DNA of 33,572 nt. It comes from Deltaproteobacteria bacterium (GTDB taxonomy: Bacteria; Desulfobacterota; Desulfobacteria; Desulfobacterales; UBA11574). Below, in pieces: positions 5,135 to 16,458 of the stretch; the first letter of the stretch is position 1; every line of letters starts with the position of its first letter. The DNA lies in NCBI GenBank assembly GCA_019313505.1, contig JAFDBA010000002.1, forward strand, positions 1 through 33,572, read 5' to 3'. The notes under the pieces are model-generated. The model ran no database searches and was not told the origin of the DNA. It saw nothing but the letters and a program-made list of their open reading frames with translations. Made by a program: the position numbers and the translations under genes.

Positions 5135-5280
5135 AGTTTCCAATTTATAAATGAGATATTTTTTCGATGAGCAAGGCCGCACAAGGGTTTTTGCCCGAGG
5201 CGTACTTTCTGTACGTCGAGGGCGGAAACCCGCGGAGAACGCCACTCATCGGAAAAATAGCTCATTTATGGATGGAAACT
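5135..5280. mobile_element. MITE-like hairpin element, about 146 bp, with ~36-bp terminal inverted repeats
   Basis: Left AGTTTCCAATTTATAAATGAGATATTTTTTCGATGAG; right end reverse complement AGTTTCCATCCATAAATGAGCTATTTTTCCGATGAG. The internal arms GGGTTTTTGCCC..CGTAC / GTACG..GGGCGGAAACCC continue the palindrome. Confidence 0.75.
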
Positions 5281-5779: not shown

Positions 5780-6523
5780 TCAAATCGATTTATGTAAAAC
5801 AACATCATTCCCTGAAATTGCCAGAAGCAATCCCCTGCGATTGGTGGCTTTTGCCACACGCAACCACTTTTCTTTGCTGAGGCCCCGTGCCAATGTGGTG
5901 AGGAGCAAGCCACCTTCCAGTTCACGGCTTCCTTTCATAACCATAAACTGGCGATGGTTGGTGAAGGCAAACAAAAGATGTCCGTTGGAAAGCAAGAAAT
6001 TATAGTCACCAGGATACTGGTCGATCATTTGCGTAGTACTATAAGCCAAAGCATCGAAAAGCATATCAGGTCCTGCGGCATGCCTGTGATGATCTTCCAT
6101 ATGGTCCCGGAGGTATTCAAAAGCCCTGGCCGAGTCGCTTACGGCATCTTCAATGGCAATATCACTACTTCTGTAAGATTCAATGGCCGGCGCTTTGCCG
6201 TTATGGGCAAAAATCCAATTATGACTGCCGAATTTTAGAACGAAGGGATGGGCATGGCACTCGTCCACTAAACCGCTGGTCCGAAAACGGATATGGCAAA
6301 TGATAATTCTACTCTTTACAACACGGGCCAGTTTTTGAAAACTGTCGTGCAAGTGACCTGAATGAAAAACCTGTTCAGCCGACTTTTCAATTAAGGCATG
6401 ATTTTTACGGAAAAAACCAATGCCCCAGCCGTCCATGTTTTTTTTGGCCTGGACTGCAAACAGGGGCATCGATTTGGGGGCGGAATAATCTTTTTTGGCG
6501 GAAAGGGCAAAAAGGTCACACAT
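5780..6523 (-). CDS. Class II glutamine amidotransferase (YafJ/GATase_4-like), catalytic motifs intact
   Basis: Cys at position 2 (MCDLFALSA), DGWGIGFF, ICHIRFRTSG, HPF, IFAHNGKA, DSARAFEYL. Confidence 0.9.
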   Translation of the reverse strand: MCDLFALSAKKDYSAPKSMPLFAVQAKKNMDGWGIGFFRKNHALIEKSAEQVFHSGHLHDSFQKLARVVKSRIIICHIRFRTSGLVDECHAHPFVLKFGSHNWIFAHNGKAPAIESYRSSDIAIEDAVSDSARAFEYLRDHMEDHHRHAAGPDMLFDALAYSTTQMIDQYPGDYNFLLSNGHLLFAFTNHRQFMVMKGSRELEGGLLLTTLARGLSKEKWLRVAKATNRRGLLLAISGNDVVLHKSI

Positions 6524-6534
6524 TTATACCAGCC

Positions 6535-7275
6535 TCAAACATCTCCAGCATATAACATATCCGGTCCGGCAATCACCAAAAGCTCACCTTTGGATTGAGG
6601 ATCCGGTATTATTGGGTGCCAATCGGTGCTAATCAGCTTTTCTCTGATGGAAGTAACCAGTAGAATGTCCCCCATACTTTCAGACTCTTTGAGAACCATC
6701 AGTTGTCCAAAGTTACAAAAGGCAAAGAGAAACGATTCATTGGCCAGAAAAAAAGTGTACTCCCCGGGGTAGTCTTCAAGAAGCTCTTGGATAGCGATGC
6801 GCATGGCAATGTATACACTGATATAGGGATTTTTGCGGTTGAGCAATACTAAGTGATCTCTTAAATATTCGAAAATTCTGGCTGTATAGACATCAATTTC
6901 AAGCCGTGGTGTTCCGACGGTCTGATATTCGCGAATGTTTTCAACAACTCCTACTTGGGCAAAAAGCCAATGGTGTTCTAAAAATTCAAGCTTGAAAGGA
7001 TGGTTGTGTGCACTGTGGCGACCACCGCTTTTGGGGCAATTTAGATGTGAAATGATGACCCGGCTATCGATGACCCGGGCAAGTCTTTGGAAGCTTTCGT
7101 GTACCTGATTTCGCGTAAACACCTGTTCGGATGATTTTTCCACCAAAGCCTGATCTTCGCGAAAAAAACCGATGCCCCAGCCGCTCATGTTTTTCTTACC
7201 CTTTTCCGCAAAGATGGGCAAGTATTTTTGGGGCGTATAGTTATATCCGGCCGAGATGGCTAAGATGTCACACAT
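6535..7275 (-). CDS. Class II glutamine amidotransferase-like paralog with degenerate glutaminase motifs
   Basis: ATG 7275 with GGGAGGG upstream (ORF track start 7308 is probably too long). MCDILAISA, SGWGIGFFREDQALVEKSSEQVF, ISHLNCPKSGG, LFAQVGVV align with the neighbour but differ at key residues. Confidence 0.88.
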   Translation of the reverse strand: MCDILAISAGYNYTPQKYLPIFAEKGKKNMSGWGIGFFREDQALVEKSSEQVFTRNQVHESFQRLARVIDSRVIISHLNCPKSGGRHSAHNHPFKLEFLEHHWLFAQVGVVENIREYQTVGTPRLEIDVYTARIFEYLRDHLVLLNRKNPYISVYIAMRIAIQELLEDYPGEYTFFLANESFLFAFCNFGQLMVLKESESMGDILLVTSIREKLISTDWHPIIPDPQSKGELLVIAGPDMLYAGDV

Positions 7276-7290
7276 GGGCCCTCCCGCTTC

Positions 7291-7305
7291 GAGACCTTTG
7301 CAAAA
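7291..7305. repeat. Isolated end of the GAGACCTTTGCAAAA hairpin-element family
   Basis: GAGACCTTTGCAAAA identical to one terminus of the element at 15184-15325; no matching partner arm nearby. Confidence 0.5.
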
Positions 7306-7306
7306 C

Positions 7307-7344
7307 ATTGTTTAATTCAATTATTTTGATATCAATTAAACAAT
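7307..7344. terminator. AT-rich perfect 11-bp hairpin overlapping the amidoligase stop codon (possible attenuator or processing site)
   Basis: ATTGTTTAATT (7307-7317) and AATTAAACAAT (7334-7344). Confidence 0.4.
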
Positions 7345-8306
7345 TTTATATGTTCTACTGACTGATCTGCTTTAGTTGGCGCCTGCTTGATACGCTCCTT
7401 ATAGCCGTACTCTGTATAAATCTCGTAGATGGTTTTCAGCCACTTGTTCGCTTCGGGATAGTAATAGATTTCCGGAACATAACCCTGGCTCAATTCAACA
7501 ATAAACTGGGTAAAGATGATCCATTGCATGGCTCCATCAATATCATGCAACACAGACGAGTGATATCGAAATTCAATGGTGGAGCGATACCAGTATGAGT
7601 GCAGATTCAAGCCGTGATAGCGGGTCTTATCATAACGTGAATTCACACCCCCATTTGCGTCGTAACGGTTTTTCAGTGAATACCAAAGTTCTTTAATGTG
7701 GCAATTACCGTCACCAACATTACCTTCGCAAACATCCAGAAAGGCTTTGACGTCAATTTCCATAGGGCGACAGGTTGCGACGTTTTTGCGATCTCCCGGA
7801 ATAAGCAGATAAAAAAGATCTTCATAGTGGTGAACGATGCGTACAAGCTGCTGGAGTTCTTTACAGGTGTAAACTGCCGGGTCAACACCGTGATGAACAT
7901 GCATGCCGCAACTTGCATCGATATCAATTCCTTCAATAGCATTGAGAAATCGGAAAGCGTTGAAGACTTGCACCAGTCCTTCCATGCCGCTTAAGATCGG
8001 GCTGATCAGTTCAACACCACATTTGGTGTGTCCTTTGCCTCTGACGGAAGAATCTCGCTCAAAGTGCCACAAGTCGCGACTGGCGCCAAGGACCAGGTTG
8101 TAATCCTTGTAAAGATCTGTAATGTGGCGCCCGTCTTTAGCACGGGATGAAATGCAGTAGGGCTTGATGATACTATTGTCCAATGGTGTTATCACATAGT
8201 TCAGGCCGAAAAATTCGATCTCCACCCCAAAGGTGCGATCGGTAAAGTTTTGCAACATGGGGTACTTGTTCTTGATCTCTGTCACAAAATGATCAGATAC
8301 AGTCAT
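7332..8306 (-). CDS. Putative amidoligase (GS/COOH-NH2 ligase fold, Amidoligase_2-like)
   Basis: FGVEIEFFG (ExE metal site), HFERDSSVRGKGHTKCGVELISPILSGMEGL, DASCGMHVHHG, STIEFRYHSSVLHDIDGAMQWIIFTQFIV. Confidence 0.88.
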   Translation of the reverse strand: MTVSDHFVTEIKNKYPMLQNFTDRTFGVEIEFFGLNYVITPLDNSIIKPYCISSRAKDGRHITDLYKDYNLVLGASRDLWHFERDSSVRGKGHTKCGVELISPILSGMEGLVQVFNAFRFLNAIEGIDIDASCGMHVHHGVDPAVYTCKELQQLVRIVHHYEDLFYLLIPGDRKNVATCRPMEIDVKAFLDVCEGNVGDGNCHIKELWYSLKNRYDANGGVNSRYDKTRYHGLNLHSYWYRSTIEFRYHSSVLHDIDGAMQWIIFTQFIVELSQGYVPEIYYYPEANKWLKTIYEIYTEYGYKERIKQAPTKADQSVEHIKLFN

Positions 8307-8315
8307 GTTAGTTCC

Positions 8316-10346
8316 TTAGCTATTCTCCCGTTCAATAATTCTAGCATCTGCCACCAATATGCCTTCAGCATAGGCGAAGACCGGGTTAAGATCGATTTCA
8401 ACAATCTCCGGATGGTTTTCGGCCATTTTGGCCACCGCAAGAATGCAGTCTGCAAGTGCCTGTTCATCCACTGCCGGTCCGCCGCGATAACCGGCAATAA
8501 GCCCATAGCCTTTTATTTCTCGTATCATAGTCAGAGCCTCATCTTTGGTCAAAGGAAAAAGCCTGAGGCTCACATCTTGAAAGATCTCTACCATAATGCC
8601 ACCAAGCCCAAAGAGGATAACCGGGCCGAACTGCGGGTCACGATTCATTCCCACGATAACCTCCAGGCCGGGAGGTGCCATCTTACTCACTAATACGCCA
8701 TCCATCCGGGCTTCGGGACTACTGAGCTTCACAGCTGACAGCAACTCGTTGTGAGCTTTTTTAACCGCTTCAGCAGAATCCAAGTTTAATTGTACCCCCC
8801 CCACATCACTTTTATGCAGGATATCAGGGGAGCTGATTTTAAGAGCCACCGGAAATCCTTGCTCCTGAGCAATCTGAGCAGCAGCAGTTGGGCTATCCGC
8901 CAGGGCAAAGTCTGTACAGGAAAGTCCTTGTTCAGCAACCCGTGCAAATGCTTGGTGAAGCGGCAATTGACGACCGATCACAGGAACAGTTAGCGTGGGT
9001 TTCTGTGGCACGGCCAGCGTTTTACGTTCAAGTACCTGGGCCAGGGCTTTTATCCCGCGTTCGGGGGTAGGGAAAACCGGAATTCCTTTAAGGTGCATGA
9101 GTTCACTTTCGTGACGTTCGATATCGGCCCCTCCATAAAAGATAATCAGCTCATTGGCATCAGGAGTTACTATGCTGGAGGCATCTTCCACCGGATCACC
9201 AAAAATAACGCCGAGAGTGTCGTAATATTTCCTGGTTGCCTTAATAACATCGTCAAACATCTGGGCAGTGCCATCACCGGTAAGATCAATAGGATTAGAC
9301 TTTATGGCATGGGCTGGAATAAGCGGCGTGATCGCCTCCACCGCCTCTTGCGGCAGGGTAGACACATCAAGGCCTTCCTGTTCAGCCTGATCCGTTGCAA
9401 GAATGGCGGCACCTCCGGATGTGGTTATAAAAAGAATGCGATTGCCTTTCGGTGGTTTCAGATAAGCCAGGGCCTTGGCGTAGTCATAAAATTCCTCTGC
9501 TGTGTAGGCCCTGCAAATGTTATATTTTGTAAAGAGGGCCTCATAGATGGCATCAGCACCGGCCAGAGCCTTGGTGTGAGACTCGGCCGCCACTTTTCCT
9601 TTGGGCGTACGGCCGGACTTGAGAACCACCAGCGGTTTTTTTAGCTGTTTCACCGATTTGATAAACTGCTCCGGGCGTTTTATCCCTTCAATGTAAGCAG
9701 CAATCACATCAGTGTTTTCATCCTGATTGAAATAGGCAATTAGATCCGCCTCATCCACGTCAGCCCTGTTGCCCATACTGACAAAACTGGAGGTTCCCAG
9801 CTTATCCTCGGATAACCAGTCCATCATTGCGGCGCCTACCGTACCGCTCTGGGAAATGAGCGCGATCTTGCCCTGGCAGGTAAGCAGCGGCCAGGATGCA
9901 CACAGAGGGTGATGGGGATTGTTTACACCCTGGCAGTTGGGCCCGATAATGCGAATGCCGAATTTTTGCGCCGCTTCAACCACCTGCTGCTGTAGCTTTT
10001 CGCCTTGGTCATCCGCCTCGGCAAAACCACCGGTAATAATAATTGCGCCTTTGACACCCTTTTCGCCGCACTCCTGCACGGCCTGGGGCACGAATCGAGC
10101 CGGTATGATAATAACAGCCAGGTCTACAGCTTCTGCAACCTCCTTTACGCTCTTGTGACAGGGAAGATCGAGAATAACGTCGGCCTTGGGATTGATGGGG
10201 TAAACAGCTCCCTTAAAGCCGCCGTCTATGACGTTTTTTAAAATTTCATGGCCCATTTTGTCAGGGCTGGCTGAAGCCCCGATAACTGCTACACTTTTAG
10301 GTCTTAAGATAGCATCTAACCGGCTTACGAAGTCTTTTTCCGCCAT
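8316..10346 (-). CDS. NDP-forming acetyl/acyl-CoA synthetase (fused alpha-beta, CoA-binding plus ATP-grasp)
   Basis: ATG 10346 with AGGAGG (track start 10469 too long). ILRPKSVAVIGASASPDKMGHEIL, GPNCQGVNNP, SQSGTVGAAMMDW, AESHTKALAGADAIYEALF (phospho-His region), ATP-grasp PVALKISSPDILHKSDVGGVQLNL, EVIVGMNRDPQFGPVILFGLGGI. Confidence 0.95.
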   Translation of the reverse strand: MAEKDFVSRLDAILRPKSVAVIGASASPDKMGHEILKNVIDGGFKGAVYPINPKADVILDLPCHKSVKEVAEAVDLAVIIIPARFVPQAVQECGEKGVKGAIIITGGFAEADDQGEKLQQQVVEAAQKFGIRIIGPNCQGVNNPHHPLCASWPLLTCQGKIALISQSGTVGAAMMDWLSEDKLGTSSFVSMGNRADVDEADLIAYFNQDENTDVIAAYIEGIKRPEQFIKSVKQLKKPLVVLKSGRTPKGKVAAESHTKALAGADAIYEALFTKYNICRAYTAEEFYDYAKALAYLKPPKGNRILFITTSGGAAILATDQAEQEGLDVSTLPQEAVEAITPLIPAHAIKSNPIDLTGDGTAQMFDDVIKATRKYYDTLGVIFGDPVEDASSIVTPDANELIIFYGGADIERHESELMHLKGIPVFPTPERGIKALAQVLERKTLAVPQKPTLTVPVIGRQLPLHQAFARVAEQGLSCTDFALADSPTAAAQIAQEQGFPVALKISSPDILHKSDVGGVQLNLDSAEAVKKAHNELLSAVKLSSPEARMDGVLVSKMAPPGLEVIVGMNRDPQFGPVILFGLGGIMVEIFQDVSLRLFPLTKDEALTMIREIKGYGLIAGYRGGPAVDEQALADCILAVAKMAENHPEIVEIDLNPVFAYAEGILVADARIIERENS

Positions 10347-10356
10347 GGCCCGCCTC

Positions 10357-10755
10357 CTAATTCCCTGCCTTTTTTGCCATGTTGCTGTTGAATTTTTCAG
10401 CGTTGATAATAAATCGATAGTGGGTGGCTTCACCGATTTTGTCAACTTCATCGAACCCTTCGACTTCAAAAGCCAGTTTGGGACCGTCCGCCTTAGTCAA
10501 TTTAGCGGTGAAACGCACCTTCATTCCCAAGGGGGTGGCAGCCATGTGTTTGAATGTCATTCCGGTTCCAACGGTTTGCTCTCCTTCGCCAAGGTGAGAA
10601 AGGACCAAGTCTGCACAAACCTCTTCAATATGCCCCACCATGGCTCGTGTTGCATATACATTGGGCACATGGGGATAGACTTTTTGTGCCGACATTTCCT
10701 CCGTTGTTTCCCGTTCCATTTGATGAGTCATGCCAACCTTTAGTGCTTCAGTCAT
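10357..10755 (-). CDS. FlK-like hotdog thioesterase
   Basis: ATG 10755 with GGAGGAAAA upstream. VYATRAMVGHIEEVCADLV and FKHMAATPLGMKVRFTAKL resemble fluoroacetyl-CoA thioesterase family motifs, retaining the Thr, Glu and His positions. Confidence 0.85.
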   Translation of the reverse strand: MTEALKVGMTHQMERETTEEMSAQKVYPHVPNVYATRAMVGHIEEVCADLVLSHLGEGEQTVGTGMTFKHMAATPLGMKVRFTAKLTKADGPKLAFEVEGFDEVDKIGEATHYRFIINAEKFNSNMAKKAGN

Positions 10756-10890
10756 TATTTTCCTCCAAAAATAATTATACGTTAACGAAATAATTGCTAA
10801 ACGATATTCATAAAACAAATATTATTTCAATTTTATCACATTAAGTCAATAAGCATTTTACTGGGTTCCAGTGGGTATCGATCATACGAT

Positions 10891-11631
10891 TTAAACTTCT
10901 GACTCAGCTGTAATCCCAAGAAGGATTTCCCGGAAATGGGGGTGACCCAAGAGCTGCTCGCCGGTTCCAACAAGGGTGATTTTTCCTTCTTCTATAAGAA
11001 ACGCTTTGGTAGCCACCCTTAATATTCGATGTACATGCTGGCCGGCTAAAAAAAGAGTAACTCCGTTGCGGTGAATCAACTTTAGAGTGTCACAAAGCCG
11101 GTTCACATCTTTTGGGGCCAGACCCAGGAAAGGATCGTCCAGCAGGAGAAGATGGGGATCACTCATCAGCCCGCGGGCAATCGTCAACATCCTTTTTTGC
11201 CCCCCGCTCAAGGTTCCTGCCATATTCCGGCGTTTATCCGCAAGAACAGGGAAGATTTCGAATATAAAAGATAGCCGGTTCTTCTTTTTTTTTCTGGCGA
11301 TATAGGCTCCCACTTCCAGATTTTCCAGCACACTCATAAGAGGAAAGACATTCATGCCTTCCGGCACATAAACCAGGCCCCGGCGAACCACTTCATGTAC
11401 AGGGAGTGTCTGAATAGGCTCATCTTGATAGCTGATAACTCCCTGAATCGGCCGCATGATGCCGGCAATTGCTTTCATGAGCGTGGTCTTGCCGGAACCG
11501 TTGGGACCCACAACGGAAACGATCTGGCCGGCACACACCGTCAGGCTAACACGCTTTAACACCTGGATATCACCATGGTAAGCAATCAAATTGCAGACTT
11601 TCATGAGCGGTTTAAAATTATCCATATTCAA
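10891..11631 (-). CDS. livF: Branched-chain amino acid ABC transporter ATP-binding protein, LivF type
   Basis: VVGPNGSGKTTLMKAIAGI Walker A, LSGGQKRMLTIARGLMSDPHLLLLDDP signature/Walker B. Confidence 0.92.
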   Translation of the reverse strand: MNMDNFKPLMKVCNLIAYHGDIQVLKRVSLTVCAGQIVSVVGPNGSGKTTLMKAIAGIMRPIQGVISYQDEPIQTLPVHEVVRRGLVYVPEGMNVFPLMSVLENLEVGAYIARKKKKNRLSFIFEIFPVLADKRRNMAGTLSGGQKRMLTIARGLMSDPHLLLLDDPFLGLAPKDVNRLCDTLKLIHRNGVTLFLAGQHVHRILRVATKAFLIEEGKITLVGTGEQLLGHPHFREILLGITAESEV

Positions 11632-12365
11632 TCTTTCTGGTGTTGCAGGCCCAGGTAAGCACGGCCCACCTCCCGGTTTTTCATGACCTTGTTGGGCGGA
11701 CCCTCTGCAATCTTTTCTCCATGATCAAGAACAAGAAGACGGTCTGAAACTTTTAAACTCAAGGTTAAAAAGTGATCGATAATTAAAATCGTTACTCCTC
11801 GCTCCCTTACCCTATTAATCAATTGGACCGCCTGTTTTACCAAAACAGGACTGAATCCCGCAGCCACTTCGTCCAAAAGCAGCAGCTTCGGACGGGTAGC
11901 AAGGGCACGGGCCAGATCGAGCCGGCGTTTCTCGCTGAGGGTAAGATCCTCGGCAAGAGTTTCGGCTTTATGAGGGATCCCAACTACTTCAAGGAGTTCC
12001 AGCGCCATTTGCACATCTTCAGACCGGGTGTGAAGACGAAAGCCTTTGCCAAAGAGGTGCCCGGTCAGTATATTGTTCAAGGCAGTCATTTTAATAAACG
12101 GCCTTGACGACTGAAATGTCCTGCTGATTCCCAGGCGGCAAATACGGTGAGGTTTGAGACCATTAATTTTCTTACCCTCAAACAGGATGTTGCCGCTGCT
12201 GGGTTTTAAACGGCCGCTGATAATATTGAACAAAGTTGTTTTCCCGGCACCGTTGGGTCCCACCAGTCCGACGATCTCCCCCTGGTTGATAGAAAAGTCA
12301 ATCCCATTCAGAGCATTAAAATCGTTGAATTTCTTACTTATTCCCCGTAGTTGTAATAGTATCAC
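11628..12365 (-). CDS. livG: Branched-chain amino acid ABC transporter ATP-binding protein, LivG type
   Basis: GLVGPNGAGKTTLFNIISG, ISRTFQSSRPF, LALDEVAAGF-type Walker B (LLLLDEVAAGFSPVL); overlaps livF by 4 bp. Start taken at GTG 12365; the track start at TTG 12473 adds a non-homologous leader. Confidence 0.88.
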   Translation of the reverse strand: MILLQLRGISKKFNDFNALNGIDFSINQGEIVGLVGPNGAGKTTLFNIISGRLKPSSGNILFEGKKINGLKPHRICRLGISRTFQSSRPFIKMTALNNILTGHLFGKGFRLHTRSEDVQMALELLEVVGIPHKAETLAEDLTLSEKRRLDLARALATRPKLLLLDEVAAGFSPVLVKQAVQLINRVRERGVTILIIDHFLTLSLKVSDRLLVLDHGEKIAEGPPNKVMKNREVGRAYLGLQHQKD

Positions 12366-12523
12366 GATATGTTCCGCAATATTTTTGACAGCATTAATTG
12401 AATAAAAATCCGAGATCCGGTAACCGTATCGTTCTTTAAGACCAATTAATTGTATCAGAAAAATTATTATCAATGAAACAATATTTTAACTATCTCGAGC
12501 ATTTTGTTATGAAAGGATAACCC

Positions 12524-13843: not shown

Positions 13844-15148
13844 GTGAAAATGACAACAAAAGATTCCTACAGCAATTGTCTGAATACTATATATAATCTT
13901 AGAAGATACGGCATTATACTTGGCCTATCTACGATCAGAAAGATTCTTCAAGGTCTGGGAAATCCACAGGATACATTTAATTCCATTCATGTGGCCGGGA
14001 CCAACGGAAAAGGATCAATCGCTTCCGCTCTGGCTACAATTCTCCATATCTCCGGATACAAAGTCGGGCTTTATACATCCCCGCATCTCGTCAGGTTCAA
14101 TGAGAGGATATCTATAAATAACCGGCATGTTTCTGATGAGGATATCGTTGCATCTTATGAGGCCGTGAAAAGCGTACATCACGGCTCTCGCGAGCCGACC
14201 TTTTTTGAGTTTGCAACTGCAATGGCCCTTTATGAATTTGGCAGACAGAAAGTCGATTGGGCCGTCATCGAAACAGGTATGGGGGGGCGGCTTGATGCAA
14301 CCAATATCATAAAACCTGCCCTTTCTATAATAACCAATATTTCCCTTGAACATAAAATCTATCTGGGGAATACCATCGCCGAAATAACCCGGGAAAAAGG
14401 GGGTATTATAAAAAATAACGTTCCTGTTGTAACCGGCGTAAAACAAAAAAATGCGATTTCAGTGTTAAAAACCATAGCCGATTCTAAATCTGCACAGCTT
14501 TACCGTTTTGGAGACGCATTCCGTGTTCGAAGAAACAATGGAGCATTCAATTATTTTGGATTAGAGAATGTGTGGCGAAATATACATACGGGATTGCTTG
14601 GCAACCACCAGATCAATAACGCAGCTCTGGTTCTCGCTTCATGTGAGATACTGAACAAAAATAACCTCGGTCTCACCCCACAAAACATCAAGGACGGCCT
14701 GGCACAAAACAAATGGCCGGGAAGACTGGAGATAGTCTCCTGGTCTCCGCTTATACTTCTTGACGGTGCCCATAATTTCATCGCCGCCCGCAATCTTGCA
14801 GGATATCTGTCTGAGAATCTTTCTGATCGTAACATAACACTGGTCGTTGGCATACTGGATGACAAGCCATGTGCTCCCATGCTTAAAAGCCTTATTCCTT
14901 TCTGTAGCAGGGTCATATTAACAAGCCCGAAAATCGATCGGGCTTTGCCTCCGGAAAAGCTTTACCCCATGGCAAAGGAAATGATTTCTGACATACATAT
15001 CATCCCTGATGTCGATAAAGCCGTGATACATGCAATTGAAACCGCATCACCTAACGATGCGATCTGTATCGCTGGTTCTCTTTACGTGGTTGGTGAAGCA
15101 AAAGAATTGTTTGAGAAAAACGCCGCTCTTTTAAGCAAATATCAGTAG
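13844..15148 (+). CDS. folC: Folylpolyglutamate synthase / dihydrofolate synthase (Mur ligase family)
   Basis: VAGTNGKGSIASALATIL, YTSPHLVRFNERI, ETGMGGRLDATNII, ILLDGAHN. Confidence 0.94.
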   Translation: MKMTTKDSYSNCLNTIYNLRRYGIILGLSTIRKILQGLGNPQDTFNSIHVAGTNGKGSIASALATILHISGYKVGLYTSPHLVRFNERISINNRHVSDEDIVASYEAVKSVHHGSREPTFFEFATAMALYEFGRQKVDWAVIETGMGGRLDATNIIKPALSIITNISLEHKIYLGNTIAEITREKGGIIKNNVPVVTGVKQKNAISVLKTIADSKSAQLYRFGDAFRVRRNNGAFNYFGLENVWRNIHTGLLGNHQINNAALVLASCEILNKNNLGLTPQNIKDGLAQNKWPGRLEIVSWSPLILLDGAHNFIAARNLAGYLSENLSDRNITLVVGILDDKPCAPMLKSLIPFCSRVILTSPKIDRALPPEKLYPMAKEMISDIHIIPDVDKAVIHAIETASPNDAICIAGSLYVVGEAKELFEKNAALLSKYQ

Positions 15149-15183
15149 CCCGGTTATCATAAAACCTACATTCTGCGGCAGGC

Positions 15184-15325
15184 GAGACCTTTGAAAAATG
15201 CTCATTTTTGTTCAAGGCCAAGGAAGGCGAAAATTTTAACCACAGGAATACATTGAGTATTTTGAGGATTAAAATTTGAGTCTGACGCCGGGATTGGGCA
15301 AAAAGGGGCGTTTTGCAAAGGTCTC
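15184..15325. mobile_element. MITE-like full-length hairpin element, about 142 bp
   Basis: Termini GAGACCTTTGaAAAA / TTTTGCAAAGGTCTC; central palindrome AATTTTAACCACAGGAATACATTGAGTATTTTGAGGATTAAAATT; no coding capacity. Confidence 0.75.
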
Positions 15326-15378
15326 CAGACTTGACATATCATCACTGATGAACTATTTATCCGAGCTATACCGATAGT

Positions 15379-15454
15379 GCGCCCGTAGCTCAGTGGATAG
15401 AGCGTCAGCCTCCGGAGCTGAAAGCCGCTGGTTCGAACCCAGCCGGGCGTACCA
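15379..15454 (+). tRNA. tRNA-Arg (anticodon CCG), CCA encoded
   Basis: Cloverleaf: acceptor GCGCCCG/CGGGCGT, D arm GCTC..GAGC, anticodon stem TCAGC/GCTGA with loop CTCCGGA, T arm GCTGG-TTCGAAC-CCAGC, 3' ACCA. Confidence 0.95.
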
Positions 15455-15474
15455 TAATTTATATAATATCCCTA

Positions 15475-16458
15475 ATGCACCTCCTGAAACCAATACAACT
15501 CGTTGGAATTACAGCCCTATTAATTTTAGGCATCATTGTGACCGACACCTCTTCATCCCAAAACACCATAGATGTGAGCCGCTATTTTTACAAAGGCGAT
15601 GGCAAGCTGAACCTTGTCAACGGAAAAAACAAGATCTCATTCAACGGCAGGTACCGGGGCGGCAAGGGCATGTATGATGAAAAAGCCCTCGAAGCAATTC
15701 ATCGTGTGTTTGGTGCGGAAAATGACAAACCGCTTTCCACCATATCCCTGCGGCTTATCGAATTCCTGGACTTTATAGAAGACCGTCTTCATCCGGGTGC
15801 ACAGATAAATATTGCCTCGGGATGGAGGAGCCCGAAATACAATGCCAATCTTCGTAAGAAGGGAAAACTCGCTGCAACGGCAAGTCTTCATCAGTATGGC
15901 ATGGCGGCAGACATAAAAATGAATGGAACGTCATCCAGGCACATCTGGAATTATGTTAAAAAACTCGGGTTCGGCGGAACAGGCTACTATCACGGAGAAC
16001 TCGTACATATTGATGTAGGGCCTGCACGCTCATGGAATGAGAAAACATCCGGCGTGGGTACGGATATTTCAATACACAACAAACTCATTGGGCTGGTGAC
16101 AGACTATGACATTTATCTGCCTGGAGAAATGATAGAACTAAGATTCATCCGCATGACGTCATTTCCCATCGGCGTCATACCTGAATTTGTTCTGGAGGGT
16201 GTAGAAAAGGACGATCGGTTAAAGGAGATTGCCCGTTTTAAACCGTCATTTGCATTTGCTTCCGGCAGCGAATGTCCACAGTTTTCTGATATTGGCCAGA
16301 TGATGGAAATCCGTTGGAAATTGCCGAGCGATATCTTACCCGGTCGATATAAGATCCGCGCCTCATTCTGTCAAAGGGTATGGAAAAATATGCCGCCTGA
16401 AATTTCAACCCCTGAATTCACTGTTATTCTGAATGAACGTAAACAAAATGAAAATTAA
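15475..16458 (+). CDS. Exported DUF882 / M15-like peptidase domain protein with C-terminal extension
   Basis: N-terminal hydrophobic signal; INIASGWRSPKYNANLRKKG, SLHQYGMAADI, GELVHIDVGPARSW (His/Asp zinc-site pattern). Confidence 0.82.
   Translation: MHLLKPIQLVGITALLILGIIVTDTSSSQNTIDVSRYFYKGDGKLNLVNGKNKISFNGRYRGGKGMYDEKALEAIHRVFGAENDKPLSTISLRLIEFLDFIEDRLHPGAQINIASGWRSPKYNANLRKKGKLAATASLHQYGMAADIKMNGTSSRHIWNYVKKLGFGGTGYYHGELVHIDVGPARSWNEKTSGVGTDISIHNKLIGLVTDYDIYLPGEMIELRFIRMTSFPIGVIPEFVLEGVEKDDRLKEIARFKPSFAFASGSECPQFSDIGQMMEIRWKLPSDILPGRYKIRASFCQRVWKNMPPEISTPEFTVILNERKQNEN

Follow-up and report, generated by a model that had tools for sequence, protein, structure and literature searches.

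Conserved association of an Amidoligase_2 protein with an intact and a degenerate class II glutamine amidotransferase in Desulfobacterota: a candidate three-protein amide synthetase

We analysed contig JAFDBA010000002.1 (33,572 nucleotides, the whole of which we call the window), a complete contig from the 2.7-Mb, 96% complete draft genome of a sulfate-reducer-type bacterium whose close relatives are Desulfobacterota, mainly Desulfobacterales metagenome-assembled genomes. Five adjacent genes on its minus strand (Table 1) encode a FlK-like thioesterase, an acyl-CoA synthetase (ACD), an Amidoligase_2 protein (AML), and two class II glutamine amidotransferases (GATases), one degenerate (GATb) and one intact (GATa). 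A preliminary description of this DNA had read all five as a single amide-forming operon. We find that the conserved functional unit consists of AML, GATb and GATa, because these three co-occur even where they are unlinked and because a LivG-LivF-FlK-ACD block exists without AML (in genome G053); ACD, FlK and the Liv genes are an adjacent module. The gene structures, families, folds, conservation, co-occurrence and residue losses described below were computed. We give an even chance to the proposal that the trio constitutes one glutamine-dependent amide synthetase made of three proteins, in which GATb has a structural or regulatory role and from which ACD, FlK and LivFG are separate.

Co-occurrence and gene order of the trio

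We compared gene neighbourhoods in 39 public loci and 20 genome stretches, and examined co-occurrence in 395 genomes spread over Desulfobacterota, the phylum that our whole-genome searches covered. Orthologs of AML (E <= 6e-77) are present in 10 of the 395 genomes, and the GATb-GATa pair is present in exactly the same 10; neither occurs alone in any genome. Fisher's test gives P ~4e-20 if the genomes are treated as independent, and the 10 genomes fall into only five families (f1, to which the window belongs, f79, f132, f139 and f155). Six of them are f79 genomes in which AML and the GATb-GATa tandem are on separate contigs and still co-occur. Most loci with 53–82% AML identity have the order AML-GATb-GATa on the same strand, including those in Desulfoferrobacter and Syntrophobacteraceae-type genomes, and the pairwise distances among the three proteins are correlated (r = 0.88–0.96). 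The association of a glutamine synthetase (GS)-fold amidoligase with class II GATases, as proposed in the preliminary description, is thus borne out: gene order is conserved, and the genes co-occur perfectly also where they are unlinked. Searches of phages and plasmids gave only remote matches, with <60% identity.

The f79 family has a distinctive arrangement. Its AML (43–48% identical) is inserted behind the ribosomal-protein operon rpsM-rpsK-rpsD-rpoA-rplQ and an NlpC/P60 peptidase gene (loci L070-L082; L156, positions 7881-9283), with no GATase or ACD gene near. At L156, AML overlaps by 4 bp a gene for a 117-residue Cys-rich protein without a Pfam match, which was confined, in the genomes tested, to f79; we rejected it as a general partner of AML, as it is absent from 8 of 8 non-f79 genomes tested. 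The GATb-GATa tandem in f79 is flanked by CoA transferase-like, CLP1-type kinase and enolase genes. Neither set of f79 flanks–ribosomal proteins, NlpC/P60 and the Cys-rich protein in the case of AML–gave a consistent clue to a substrate, and because the neighbouring genes differ among families, the substrate is not deducible from them.

The predicted ligase and the two GATases

AML matches Pfam Amidoligase_2 (PF12224; cut-off 22 bits) over profile positions 2-243 of 245. Residues G27, E29, E31, D85, E99, H136, H138, R229, H231, N234, E245 and R247 are common to 39 AML homologs, including remote Amidoligase_2 members, and the acidic, His and Arg residues among them look like a GS-like set. An AlphaFold (AF2) model of AML (pLDDT 80) aligns with structures of glutamine synthetase and the GCS-like protein YbdK with VIA-align Z-scores of 9–10 (root-mean-square deviation 3.5–5.9 over ~190–220 residues). 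Foldseek TM-scores are low (0.2–0.4), so the similarity is remote and the fold assignment rests on the VIA-align Z-scores together with the conserved residues. Searches of PDB sequences with AML and with an AML profile found no relevant match and no solved sequence relative. AML is assigned a GS/GCS-like fold in which residues for metal and ATP sites are conserved, and it is predicted to be an ATP-dependent COOH-NH2 ligase. An in-frame TAG has been reported in an AML copy of genome G202; it is most likely the natural stop, because many relatives end at about residue 311 and the G202 open reading frame (ORF) encodes 316 aa. A second AML paralog (68% identical) occurs without GATases at L053 (6136-9936), L055 and L056, where it adjoins genes for a pyridoxal phosphate-dependent decarboxylase and a ~490-residue protein without a Pfam match.

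GATa and GATb, both well above the GATase_4 cut-off of 23 bits, are the only strong matches to this model in the genome; a third, weak match lies in a 476-aa frame. In a phylogenetic tree the GATa and GATb sequences are split with full support, and we therefore place a single duplication before these families diverged. The class II residues Cys2, Arg, Asn, Gly and Asp are present in 25 of 25 GATa homologs, with Thr changed to Ser in four. In GATb, by contrast, the glutamine site is gone: Asn98, Asp123 and Thr76 are each lost in 29 of 29 homologs and Arg73 in 25 of 29, the four that retain Arg73 being consistent with the f79 rows of the alignment. The site residues (Arg73, Thr76, Asn98-Gly99 and Asp123) are numbered as in GlmS. 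GATb has kept its Gly residues, and Cys2 is kept in all 29 homologs, so the description of this gene as degenerate is right for its glutamine site and needs refinement at its N-terminal catalytic Cys.

GATb is not a decaying copy, because it is about as well conserved as GATa (mean pairwise identity 61.6% for GATb and 62.6% for GATa) and because dN (nonsynonymous divergence) is well below dS (synonymous divergence), as holds for each of the five genes in comparisons between f1 relatives; these sequence comparisons indicate purifying selection. The GATb model has a class II GATase fold, with Foldseek hits to 1te5 (E = 4e-14) and then to EgtC and PurF. EgtC and the uncharacterised protein 1te5 are the structural neighbors of this GATase family, and EgtC (TIGR03442) is also the best NCBIfam match of GATa (41.4 bits, against a cut-off of 218.65; GATb scores 22 bits). 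Taken with its families, conservation and co-occurrence, GATb would be a non-catalytic GATase paralog and a subunit of structural or regulatory function, which most likely pairs with GATa or docks GATa onto AML. It is a long shot that GATb is anything but a dead subunit, its invariant N-terminal Cys having taken on a new task while the glutamine site was lost; the thiol might, for instance, carry an acyl group or a substrate as part of a relay linking GATa with AML. If it were so, the trio's ligation chemistry would be unlike that of known glutamine-dependent amide synthetases.

The gene array and other features of the window

All five minus-strand ORFs are intact from ATG to stop, and their coordinates and intergenic gaps (10, 9, 56 and 11 bp) are exactly as first described. 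Profile searches likewise confirmed the families: FlK, ATP-grasp_5/Succ_CoA_lig/CoA_binding_2, Amidoligase_2 and GATase_4 (twice), all above cut-off. An upstream ATG at 7308 was proposed for GATb by the ORF caller, but we place the start at 7275 because a Met-Cys-Asp start is conserved. The tightness of the array is weaker evidence than it appears, because in relatives the ACD-AML gap varies between about -14 and 290 bp and the AML-GATb gap between -8 and 609 bp. A scan for promoters was at background level (18 sites, with 12.4 expected in shuffles), and a scan of the stretch for terminators found nothing above background.

Table 1. Coordinates in the window of the five genes and of a promoter-like site.
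Feature	Position	Strand	Evidence or assessment
GATa: intact GATase_4 class II glutamine amidotransferase	5780..6523	-	Pfam GATase_4 94.8 bits; Cys2, HIRFRTSG, FAHNG and SDSAR motifs
GATb: degenerate GATase_4 paralog (conserved pseudo-glutaminase)	6535..7275	-	Pfam GATase_4 54.8 bits; class II GATase fold
AML: Amidoligase_2, predicted glutamine synthetase-fold carboxylate-amine ligase	7332..8306	-	Pfam Amidoligase_2 103 bits
ACD: NDP-forming acyl-CoA synthetase, fused alpha+beta, ACD type	8316..10346	-	Judged a neighbor outside the core
FlK-like hotdog thioesterase	10357..10755	-	Judged a neighbor outside the core
Promoter-like site TTGACT-17-AATAAT, extended TG	10821..10849	-	Top site of the stretch, 66 bp upstream of the thioesterase start; weak evidence

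ACD carries ATP-grasp_5 (254 bits), Succ_CoA_lig (169 bits) and CoA_binding_2 (96 bits) domains in one chain, and its motif AAESHTKALAG contains the phospho-acceptor His. It scores below the cut-offs of substrate-specific models for acetate (536, cut-off 1200), 3-hydroxypropionate (459, cut-off 1300) and 4-hydroxybutyrate (482, cut-off 1300). The thioesterase matches FlK (PF22636) at 118 bits (cut-off 27), and its Thr, Glu and His align with the triad of FlK chain 3p3f. Both proteins match the families of ACD/FlK/Liv-type systems, and the LivG-LivF-FlK-ACD block is present elsewhere in this taxonomic order; in the window, this block is a neighbor that lies outside the amidoligase unit. The LivG and LivF ATPases (10891-12473) have no adjoining permease or binding-protein genes here or in genomes of the same genus, and a divergent ADK gene is next door, whereas in the relatives L046, L047 and L170 a more complete Liv-like set precedes FlK-ACD.

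Elsewhere in the window, a 144-bp palindromic element (5137-5280) with 34-bp inverted arms and a DNA hairpin z-score of -8.5 has about a dozen genomic copies, mostly at 85–97% identity, and resembles a miniature inverted-repeat transposable element (MITE) or a repetitive extragenic palindromic (REP) repeat. It overlaps the assigned start of the ORF of a 4HBT thioesterase, whose real start is probably downstream at ~5302. Positions 13844-16458, near the long adenylate kinase, encode a protein with the middle and C-terminal domains of Mur ligases and, after it, an M15-type peptidase.

Proposed reaction, alternative explanations and known systems

In the proposed synthetase, GATa would act as an N-terminal-cysteine class II glutaminase that frees ammonia from glutamine. 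AML would activate a carboxylate with ATP, as an acyl phosphate by analogy with GS, and join the ammonia from GATa to it to form an amide. GATb, its glutamine site lost, would pair with GATa or dock it onto AML as a non-catalytic subunit. We infer complex formation, ammonia transfer, the direction of the reaction and the role of GATb from the protein families, their conservation and their co-occurrence. Several points weigh against this proposal: some AML paralogs (L053, L055 and L056) have no adjoining GATase, L060-L062 have GATb with no GATa nearby, we found no biochemistry for AML, GATa or GATb, and this GATase subfamily, as EgtC exemplifies, is able to hydrolyse gamma-glutamyl amides instead of feeding ammonia.

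The last point leads to the main rival, a gamma-glutamyl ligase/hydrolase pair like EgtA and EgtC, which we regard as unlikely but more probable than the other alternatives. AML would join an amine or amino acid to the gamma-carboxylate of glutamate, and GATa, as an Ntn amidohydrolase, would later remove the glutamyl group, with no transfer of free ammonia. The EgtC matches of the GATases in profile and structure searches are in its favor, and so is the fold of AML, which it has in common with the GCS/YbdK group, the makers of gamma-glutamyl bonds; EgtA belongs to the GCS/GS ligase superfamily. Equivalent residues serve in the glutamine site of class II enzymes and in the gamma-glutamyl site of EgtC, so sequence cannot separate a glutaminase from a gamma-glutamyl hydrolase in GATa. 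EgtC has the class II GATase/Ntn fold and its residues, but GATa falls far under the EgtC cut-off, the trio has an extra inactive paralog, and the documented pairings of amidoligases involve GATases. EgtD (TIGR03438) was not found in the 96% complete genome; this and the low EgtC score disfavor ergothioneine synthesis, as far as the TIGR03438 model goes.

That ACD and FlK supply or clear the acid amidated by AML, as a five-gene pathway would have it, we consider improbable. The genes share a strand, have gaps of 9–10 bp and are syntenic across f1, where ACD is upstream of AML throughout except at the GATase-less paralogs and at loci cut by a contig end; ACD also adjoins AML in G341 (f132), and in G208 AML remains beside ACD though the GATases are elsewhere. 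Synteny is equally strong, however, for the unrelated genes downstream (4HBT, hydrolase and inositol phosphatase), and the gaps are variable, as noted above. Outside f1, ACD adjoins AML only in G341, and FlK flanks AML only within f1. Loci L060-L069 have AML-GATb(-GATa) without ACD or FlK wherever upstream DNA is available (L064, of Desulfoferrobacter suflitae DRH4, has the whole trio and no ACD), Syntrophobacterales-type loci have the whole trio without either as neighbors, the f79 AML has neither, and the Liv-FlK-ACD block of G053 occurs in a genome where no AML was found. The preliminary inclusion of ACD and FlK in the pathway is therefore not supported, and with it goes the support for the idea that neighboring enzymes make or hydrolyse the CoA ester of the amidated carboxylate, because neither gene is consistently conserved beside AML, an outcome that the preliminary description had itself named as refuting its reading. 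A role in the cell wall, such as amidation of a D-Glu or meso-diaminopimelate carboxylate of peptidoglycan precursors (compare MurT/GatD and LtsA/AsnB-type enzymes), seems to us slightly less probable again; it is a substrate assignment that is compatible with a three-protein amide synthetase. Two observations speak for this role: in f79 an NlpC/P60 peptidase gene precedes AML, and a passage of PMC10580990, citing Iyer 2009, mentions the suggestion that amidoligase/GATase pairs of phages modify the cell wall. The NlpC/P60 neighbor, however, is limited to f79, where it lies within a ribosomal-protein operon, and elsewhere no cell-wall genes accompany the unit. The MurT/GatD peptidoglycan amidation complex (PMC5871853, PMC3267633) resembles the proposed synthetase in having separate ligase and glutaminase subunits and in amidating a carboxylate with glutamine, but MurT belongs to the Mur ligases and GatD to the class I GATases, and both folds differ from those of the trio.

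The pairing of an amidoligase with a class II GATase is already known. It has been reported, with Amidoligase_2 adjoining class II GATases, in the phage UFV-P2 (PMC3890496) and in OM43 phages (PMC10580990), and passages of PMC3890496, PMC10580990 and PMC10945688 treat it as an established prediction attributed to Iyer et al. 2009. We also found, in Desulfobacterota, another and only remotely related Amidoligase_2 subfamily (L009, 1336-3489; L042, 589-2175; L038, L041 and L045), which occurs with DUF5049 and GATase_6 (L009) or with AIG2/GGACT beside a conjugation-type ATPase (L042); this arrangement is the canonical one and is probably mobile. The gene pairs of Amidoligase_2 and class II GATase described by Iyer et al. 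in 2009 (Mol Biosyst 5:1636) reportedly often include, as an optional member, an AIG2/GGACT cyclotransferase or an ATP-grasp ligase; among the window genes scanned we found neither, apart from the ATP-grasp domain of ACD. The trio shares with Iyer-type systems the GS-fold amidoligase family and its linkage to a class II GATase gene, but here the GATases are of the GATase_4 type and present in two copies, one of them catalytically degenerate, and the trio is chromosomal and apparently vertically kept. What sets the trio apart is the GATase_4 partner, the obligate pairing of an active with an inactive GATase, and the fact that the three genes persist together on the chromosome also where they are not linked. 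A search of the available literature found no paper on the trio, on pseudo-GATases or on this Desulfobacterota pairing, which is not proof of absence.

Amidoligase_2 enzymes have long been predicted; the trio is a compact, conserved chromosomal set containing one of them. The correction of the five-gene pathway drops two genes that would mislead a search for its substrate. An obligate pair of active and inactive class II GATases would be an uncommon way to build an enzyme that depends on glutamine.

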